From Arthrobacter crystallopoietes (GTDB lineage: Bacteria; Actinomycetota; Actinomycetes; Actinomycetales; Micrococcaceae): DNA of 64,000 nucleotides. The notes under the pieces are model-generated. The model worked only from the letters and a program-made list of their open reading frames with translations. It was not told the DNA's origin and searched no databases. The stretch spans positions 4,092,001 through 4,156,000 of the forward strand of contig NZ_CP018863.1 in the NCBI RefSeq assembly GCF_002849715.1, in the 5' to 3' direction. The translations under genes and the position numbers were made by a program. How positions within the stretch are numbered: position 1 is the first letter of the stretch; the number at the start of each line of letters is the position of its first letter. Positions 6,505 to 6,660 of this stretch are shown here, one piece after another.

Positions 6505-6582
6505 GTTCGTTGGCCTTTTCTTCAGAGTTCTTTTTGAGATTTTGGCCGGGCAACACGAACTCCGCAGCGAGGGTTCGGCCTG
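6505..6582 (-). promoter_or_regulatory. leuA leader RNA: LEU-type pseudoknot and possible start-site switch
   Basis: On the minus strand, CGAAC (6577-6573) and GTTCG (6560-6556) form a five-bp stem. Its 12-base loop begins CCTCGC (6572-6567), which is complementary to GCGAGG at 6608-6603 inside the leader-peptide coding region, giving an H-type pseudoknot. This matches my recollection of the LEU element predicted upstream of leuA in many actinobacteria. In addition, GTTCGT (6560-6555) can pair instead with ACGAAC (6510-6505), which abuts the leuA start codon. The two pairings are mutually exclusive. The sequences are directly visible; the regulatory role is inferred. Confidence 0.65.
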
Positions 6583-6642
6583 TCAAACAGAAGTTCGCGT
6601 GGCCTCGCCGCGGCAGCTAAGAAGAAGCAGATCTGCGCGCAC
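6583..6642 (-). CDS. leuA leader peptide with four consecutive Leu codons
   Basis: A 19-codon frame from GTG at 6642 to TGA at 6585-6583 reads MRADLLLLSCRGEATRTSV. Codons 5-8 are CTG CTT CTT CTT, a leucine-sensing run. It ends 78 bases before leuA. TAATGT at 6654-6649 lies exactly six bases before the GTG, and TGC precedes it as an extended -10, so the message is probably leaderless and starts at the GTG. Stalling at the Leu codons when charged tRNA-Leu is scarce would leave the downstream hairpin free to form, whereas a ribosome at the stop codon would cover one arm of it. It was too short for ordinary gene calling. Confidence 0.8.
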   Translation of the reverse strand: MRADLLLLSCRGEATRTSV

Positions 6643-6660
6643 AATTTCACATTAGCACGG
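6643..6660 (-). promoter_or_regulatory. Promoter of leuA leader (extended -10 TGC-TAATGT)
   Basis: TAATGT occupies 6654-6649 on the minus strand, preceded by TGC and followed by six bases before the leader GTG. No good -35 hexamer is seen at 16-18 bases upstream (C-rich sequence there), which is common for extended -10 actinobacterial promoters. Confidence 0.55.

Follow-up and report, generated by a model that had tools for sequence, protein, structure and literature searches.

In classical ribosome-mediated attenuation (e.g. the trp and ilvB leaders), codons for the end product precede alternative RNA folds. The closest described system to the locus analysed here is the LEU element of actinobacterial leuA (PMC1262725), in which a leader with Leu codons and a pseudoknot go together with a base stem joining the Leu codons to the Shine–Dalgarno (SD) sequence of leuA. 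Its description in 2005 left the mechanism unexplained, with a guess at protein binding. On the altered leader codons of Streptomyces coelicolor leuA (Craster 1999), the introduction of PMC1262725 speaks of some effect unlike classical attenuation, while its conclusion is that the changes had no influence on regulation. Leu-rich leaders are also reported as leuL1 of Streptomyces lividans (MRFGLLLLSCRGEGL; PMC8079986) and as leuL of Corynebacterium (PMC4046766, PMC6892785, PMC5784534); the excerpts of these reports considered here name attenuation and give no structure or pairing. In a (p)ppGpp0 strain of C. glutamicum under total starvation, a joint increase of leuL and leuA at 5 min is reported (PMC6892785).

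The window, i.e. the whole 64,000-nucleotide stretch of Arthrobacter crystallopoietes DNA that was analysed, contains a leuA leader on its minus strand (Table 1). Direct reading confirmed the letters and coordinates of the original prediction, including the 19-codon leader with four Leu codons, and its assignment to the LEU element agrees in position, Leu-codon leader and pseudoknot. Judged from its sequence, the locus is a LEU element upstream of leuA, real, conserved and of an already known kind, with the defining Leu codon run in an ORF upstream of the gene. Like the 2005 element it has no terminator. It differs in that (i) the base stem between Leu run and SD gives no covariation signal in Micrococcaceae; (ii) the 2005 text mentions neither a sensor of rare codons nor the copies at leuC and leuB described below; and (iii) the mechanism given there is protein binding. 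As far as the excerpted reports go, leuL1 resembles the locus in being leaderless, in its LLLLSCRGE core upstream of leuA and in lacking a typical terminator, and the Corynebacterium leuL leaders are likewise Leu-rich. With classical attenuation it shares end-product codons placed before alternative RNA folds; here, however, a simple scan finds no intrinsic terminator before the gene, as a classical transcription attenuator would have, the leader ORF itself contains one of the two strands of the main helix and the topology is that of a pseudoknot. A search of Rfam 15 with the window yielded nothing at the gathering score, and positions 6400-6720 had no match at E ≤ 5.

Table 1. Features of the leuA leader locus in the window, in the order of transcription
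Feature	Position	Strand	Remarks
Extended -10, TGcTAATGT	6649..6657	-	Puts the transcription start approximately at the leader GTG
Leader ORF, MRADLLLLSCRGEATRTSV	6583..6642	-	GTG 6642 to TGA 6585-6583, 19 codons
Sensor, three CUU Leu codons	6619..6627	-	Rare-codon enrichment; further CUG at 6630-6628
S1a	6603..6618	-	Core 6613-6603 (with 6572-6562) plus extension 6618-6615 (with 6561-6558); covariation
S2a, GGCCG, conserved hairpin 5' arm	6576..6580	-	Permutation tests
S1b	6558..6572	-	Core 6572-6562 plus extension 6561-6558, within the S2 loop; covariation
S2b, CGGCC, conserved hairpin 3' arm	6544..6548	-	Permutation tests
leuA SD region	6512..6523	-	GAAGAAAAGG 6523-6514, tail GGCC 6515-6512; output role a candidate
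ACGAAC	6505..6510	-	Partner of GTTCGT 6560-6555 in the original prediction; not conserved
leuA, 2-isopropylmalate synthase	4750..6504	-	ATG 6504; NCBIfam TIGR00970 and NF002991

A DNA search gave a match in 194 of 197 sampled Micrococcaceae genomes. The locus sample consisted of 120 loci, 90 of them upstream regions from Micrococcaceae and 30 from a phylum-wide LeuA search. Loose scanning of the 90 turned up a short ORF containing an LLL run in 83. Loci with no LLL leader were dropped (L032, L034, L045, L047, L048, L080 and L081, the last two of which have LTLL), as were a false leader (L044) and two repeats (L091 and L092). This left 110 loci with 108 unique sequences, 80 from Micrococcaceae and 28 from outside, and the LLLLSCRGE core or a variant of it recurs in leaders of distant families. 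Three alignments were picked for variety: A1 with 72 of the 108 unique sequences, A2 with 50 of 69 listed sequences and A3 with 40 (20 leuA, 8 leuC and 12 leuB-type; L329 was excluded, and the leuB-type leader L312 has no leuB seen in its locus). One set for exchanged-partner permutations had 45 sequences, 29 from 27 Micrococcaceae genera (three from one genus) and 16 from outside.

Comparison of these sequences supports a helix of 11–15 bp between the leader strand S1a and the loop strand S1b (hereafter S1). In A1, 92.9% of cells are paired against 89.7% in shuffles, and pairing falls to 45–54% when the partner is slid. Two-sided changes occur at 9 of 15 pairs (1/500 shuffles as high) and in 48 cells, where 14.9 are expected from shuffles; the covariation score was reached by 0/500 shuffles in a control that ignores relatedness. 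The mixed set A3 behaves similarly (88.8% paired, 39 cells versus 14.1, 0/500 shuffles). S1a encodes Cys-Arg-Gly-Glu, and across relatives the residues vary (e.g. RGE, RSG, RNG and RDG). The leader strand changes its amino acids while the non-coding partner follows, so that it is the RNA that is kept. The original prediction had already paired the loop with the leader through GCGAGG (6608-6603) and CCTCGC; this helix exists beyond chance (0/500 shuffles), although six base pairs are only part of it.

The conserved hairpin of the element, S2, joins S2a to S2b and encloses S1b. With flexible arms, own partners were matched by exchanged ones in 4/2000 permutations of the 45 sequences and in 0/5000 of the mixed A3 set (40 sequences), in which S2 variants include GGUCGGC:GCCGACC and AGGGCCAC:GUGGCCCU. 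No signal was obtained within Micrococcaceae alone (927/2000 as good) or within leuC alone (1663/5000). On fixed columns there was likewise none (68.8% paired versus 69.4% in shuffles) because the arms are misaligned, and the flexible tests were used in place of the column counts. S1 and S2 are thus each supported by comparison as helices that would make up the pseudoknot of a LEU element, and they probably correspond to the helices of the 2005 description. Missing from the structure proposed in the original prediction were S2, the greater part of S1 and the stem that the 2005 paper describes between Leu codons and SD.

A different hairpin, CGAAC 6577-6573 with GTTCG 6560-6556, had been placed at this position by the original prediction. 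Its letters can pair, but it is not the conserved hairpin: 64.0% of cells are paired against 64.3% in shuffles, with no covariation. This hairpin was supposed to protect GTTCGT until a ribosome at the leader stop leaves it free to pair with ACGAAC at the leuA ATG and block leuA translation. The two hexamers are indeed perfect partners, their duplex is part of the window's computed lowest-energy fold, where it stacks on a GGCC:GGCC duplex at the SD, and for the ATG-pairing region the duplex energy of own partners in 72 related sequences was equalled by 26/2000 exchanges in a looser test. Against such a switch, the pairing is not conserved among relatives (43.1% paired versus 43.9% in shuffles), and covariation, on which the original prediction had staked it, is absent, so that neither of the two pairings covaries. 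The exact GTTCGT/ACGAAC pair occurs in two of the 108 unique sequences (L001 and L004), and any perfect 6-mer at this place in 8/108, compared with 193/5000 (3.9%) cross-species draws; for a similar region in the 29 sequences from 27 genera, 884/2000 permutations were as good. We consider this switch extremely unlikely as the mechanism of the element. Since the window's lowest-energy fold contains the ATG pairing, this pairing could nevertheless function in this species and those most closely related to it.

The Leu codons CTG CTT CTT CTT are leader codons 5–8 (6630-6619). In the 108 leaders the last three Leu codons, summed over the three positions, are CTT 203, CTC 69, CTA 37 and CTG 15 of 324, whereas the leuA coding parts use CTG 1893, CTC 555, TTG 73, CTT 47, CTA 6 and TTA 1 of 2575, i.e. 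240/324 against 53/2575 for CTT and CTA together. Rare codons make up 66/87 versus 9/359 in the 29 sequences of the 27 Micrococcaceae genera and 25/48 versus 5/645 in the 16 sequences from outside, while the fourth Leu codon from the leader end is ordinary (CTG in 26/53). Because CTA brings no advantage for base pairing to an SD rich in purines, codon rarity itself looks selected at the sensor. The Leu-codon sensor of the original prediction is thus likely, with the addition that its last three codons are enriched in rare CTT and CTA. The leaderless-type promoter predicted with it is also borne out across relatives. A TAnnnT motif lies 10–15 nt before the chosen leader start in 96 of 107 leaders and at 6/1080 random coding positions, a contrast that is somewhat flattered because the -10 match guided the choice between in-frame starts, a procedure that favours TAnnnT, and because coding DNA is richer in G+C.

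The distribution of the element was analysed with a covariance model (R1) made from S1 and the Leu codons, the E-values of which are rough. Matches to R1 were obtained in 212 of 248 genomes from the order (E ≤ 0.01) and, under the stricter limit of E ≤ 0.001, in 272 of 296 genomes sampled from the class. Elsewhere in the window's own genome there are weak matches only (E 0.13 or worse), two of which on reading look like chance. One Micrococcaceae genome has a second R1 match (G020:C1:2603760-2603837, E 2e-5), at locus L192, which holds a LeuA-like gene.

Several groups carry the element at other leucine genes. In one family (f4), 17 of the 17 genomes listed with a match have two or three elements (16 genomes without a match were not listed), and eleven second copies lie upstream of an ORF read as leuC, two of which were checked as TIGR00170 leuC. 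Among 80 named leuC loci, R1 matches upstream of leuC in 18, all within the 26 loci L196-L221 of Agromyces, Microbacterium, Leifsonia, Glaciibacter, Cryobacterium, Terrimesophilobacter, Leucobacter, Rathayibacter and a Microbacteriaceae MAG; at E ≤ 0.01 there is no match upstream of leuC in 8 of these 26 or in the 54 other loci. Since all matches upstream of leuC in the 80 loci fall in this Microbacteriaceae block, f4 is probably Microbacteriaceae. The element also stands upstream of second LeuA-like genes (L156, L184, L188, L189, L302, L304, L305, L306, L307, L309, L319, L327, L328, L330 and L333); those measured are 49–55% identical to the window's LeuA.

A leuB locus with the element is present in 15 genomes of seven families (f2, f3, f8, f91, f92, f100 and f102), and leuB was identified in three checked loci as NF002898. 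In these leaders Val, Leu and Ile codons (e.g. GTA CTC ATC) replace the Leu run, and S1 and S2 are kept. A small conserved ORF separates the element from leuB in at least nine readable loci, and the distance from the element end to leuB is about 139–444 nt in nine loci. This ORF encodes about 20–45 amino acids with a core like ALQESMDRRDNGG (L318:2483-2611 (-), L320:379-510, L323:263-415, L326:264-422, L331:347-406, L190:1644-1721, L191:1654-1746 and L194:1333-1431 (-)). Nothing in Pfam (above cut-off) or NCBIfam matches it; for one form there are 446 homologues at E ≤ 0.01, and among the best 120 of these the named ones are hypothetical proteins of Nocardioides or Nocardioidaceae. TAnnnT-like hexamers are seen a few bases before the leuB ATG in L320, L323, L331 and L314. 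The sequence suggests that leuB also has its own leaderless-type promoter, in which case the element may mainly control the small ORF.

A second model without sensor codons (R2) was run on 40 genomes of the class. The 112 loci checked from this and the earlier searches comprise 97 leuA, 7 leuB and 2 leuC loci and six with none of these genes, the latter at E 0.0027 or worse; no other pathway was seen with the element among them. Our literature search, which covered open-licence PMC papers, found no report of leuB or leuC copies of the LEU element.

Relying on these comparisons, we regard it as reasonably probable that the LEU element is a ribosome-sensing leader of leuA. Comparison shows a leaderless-type promoter at the leader start, a stretch of three Leu codons, most of them rare, immediately 5' of S1a, and pairing of S1a with S1b in the S2 loop, either as a pseudoknot or as two alternative folds. 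When leucyl-tRNA is scarce, a ribosome would stall on the CUU codons and its footprint would cover most of S1a, so that S1 could not form and leuA would be expressed. When leucine is ample, the ribosome would reach the stop and leave, S1 would form and leuA expression would fall. The joint rise of leuL and leuA in starved C. glutamicum speaks for this model. The mutation data of Craster (1999), as given in PMC1262725, count against it, as do nested folding, in which stalling does not release the SD, and the lack of an S2 signal within Micrococcaceae alone.

The alternative put forward in 2005 (Seliverstov 2005) is that a regulatory protein, for which a DEAD-box helicase family was proposed, binds to the element, with no leader-peptide switch involved. 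It draws on mutation data and on a phylogenetic pattern as read in PMC1262725, but would not lead one to expect rare codons exactly at the last three Leu codons, or the exchange for Val, Leu and Ile codons at leuB. This bias and this exchange favour a stalling ribosome as the sensor, and we consider a protein site very unlikely.

The SD region is a candidate site of the output. GAAGAA (6523-6518) is able to pair with UUCUUC (6626-6621), the 6-bp published base stem, and the GGCC tail of the SD is able to pair with S2b. The main computed SD partner is S2b in Micrococcaceae (0.31) and the Leu run outside (0.24). Pairing of the Leu codon run with the SD could itself shut off translation except when a ribosome occupies these codons; in favour of this are the fit in the window and the computed partner outside Micrococcaceae, together with own pairs that weakly beat exchanged ones there (78/2000 as good). 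Within Micrococcaceae, however, there is no signal (1202/2000). The column count is weak (64.5% paired versus 63.0%; 31/500 shuffles as high, and 48/500 for the covariation score), and CTA, which is unable to pair with the SD, replaces CTT or CTC in several genera (20/87). We consider this shut-off unlikely.

In Micrococcaceae, a candidate output of the ribosome-sensing leader is that S1 together with the leader-end GGCC takes up S2a, which would make the GGCC of S2b available to the GGCC that follows the leuA SD. In other groups the candidate is the published stem between Leu codons and SD. Four GGCC boxes (leader end 6604-6601, S2a, S2b and SD tail) are present in 48 of 80 Micrococcaceae sequences versus 1 of 28 others, and 49 of 102 sequences have AAGGCC as their SD tail. 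For pairing of the SD with S2a, one of seven regions tested, 27, 132 and 7 of 2000 permutations were as good in three sets. Nested folding with a stalled ribosome covering the leader did not free the SD. The mean SD opening cost in the 80 Micrococcaceae sequences is 8.70 free, 8.27 stalled and 8.13 with the ribosome at the stop, and the window's own values (9.1, 11.8 and 10.3) run in the wrong direction; S2b:SD pairing is 0.53 free and 0.51–0.55 stalled (0.95 to 1.0 in the window). These calculations cover neither pseudoknots nor folding during transcription. A four-box GGCC attenuator was therefore set aside, as folding shows no release on stalling, and the boxes are retained as a candidate output only. 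A second small ORF starting from GTG or TTG after S1b (with GGAG spacing) was also rejected, since on reading its start and frame are not kept between relatives.

The output could also lie at the level of transcription, e.g. through Rho-dependent termination on RNA left uncovered when translation of the leader stops, with S1 and S2 only modulating. The element can be far from its gene, with 40–113 nt from the S1b end to the leuA start in the 108 loci and the longer distances at leuB given above, although at leuB the small ORF in between may be the regulated gene. A simple scan for an intrinsic terminator (hairpin plus T-run) between S1b and leuA found a terminator-like site in 0/108 loci, which leaves Rho. 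We rate a transcription-level output as rather unlikely.

More tentatively, and with slightly less than even confidence, we propose that the LEU element is one member of a class-wide modular attenuator. It would consist of a fixed pseudoknot (S1, from the C/S-R-G/D-E/G codons, and S2) with interchangeable rare sensor codons just 5' of S1, which would read Leu at the leuA and leuC loci, and Val/Leu/Ile where the small ORF and leuB follow. It would act by stalling without a terminator and through lineage-specific outputs (palindromic GGCC boxes in Micrococcaceae, pairing of Leu codons with the SD elsewhere). Through the bias towards rare codons and the naturally exchanged sensor codons at leuB, the ribosome-stalling model becomes directly testable, and the covariance model permits annotation of an element that is present in most sampled genomes of the class and has no Rfam match.

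On the other side of the leader, a divergent ORF of 657 amino acids (6683-8656 (+)), which by eye resembles M13-type peptidases, begins at a distance of 41 nt from the start of the leader. Two promoters would then share a very short gap, and the called start of this ORF may be too early.
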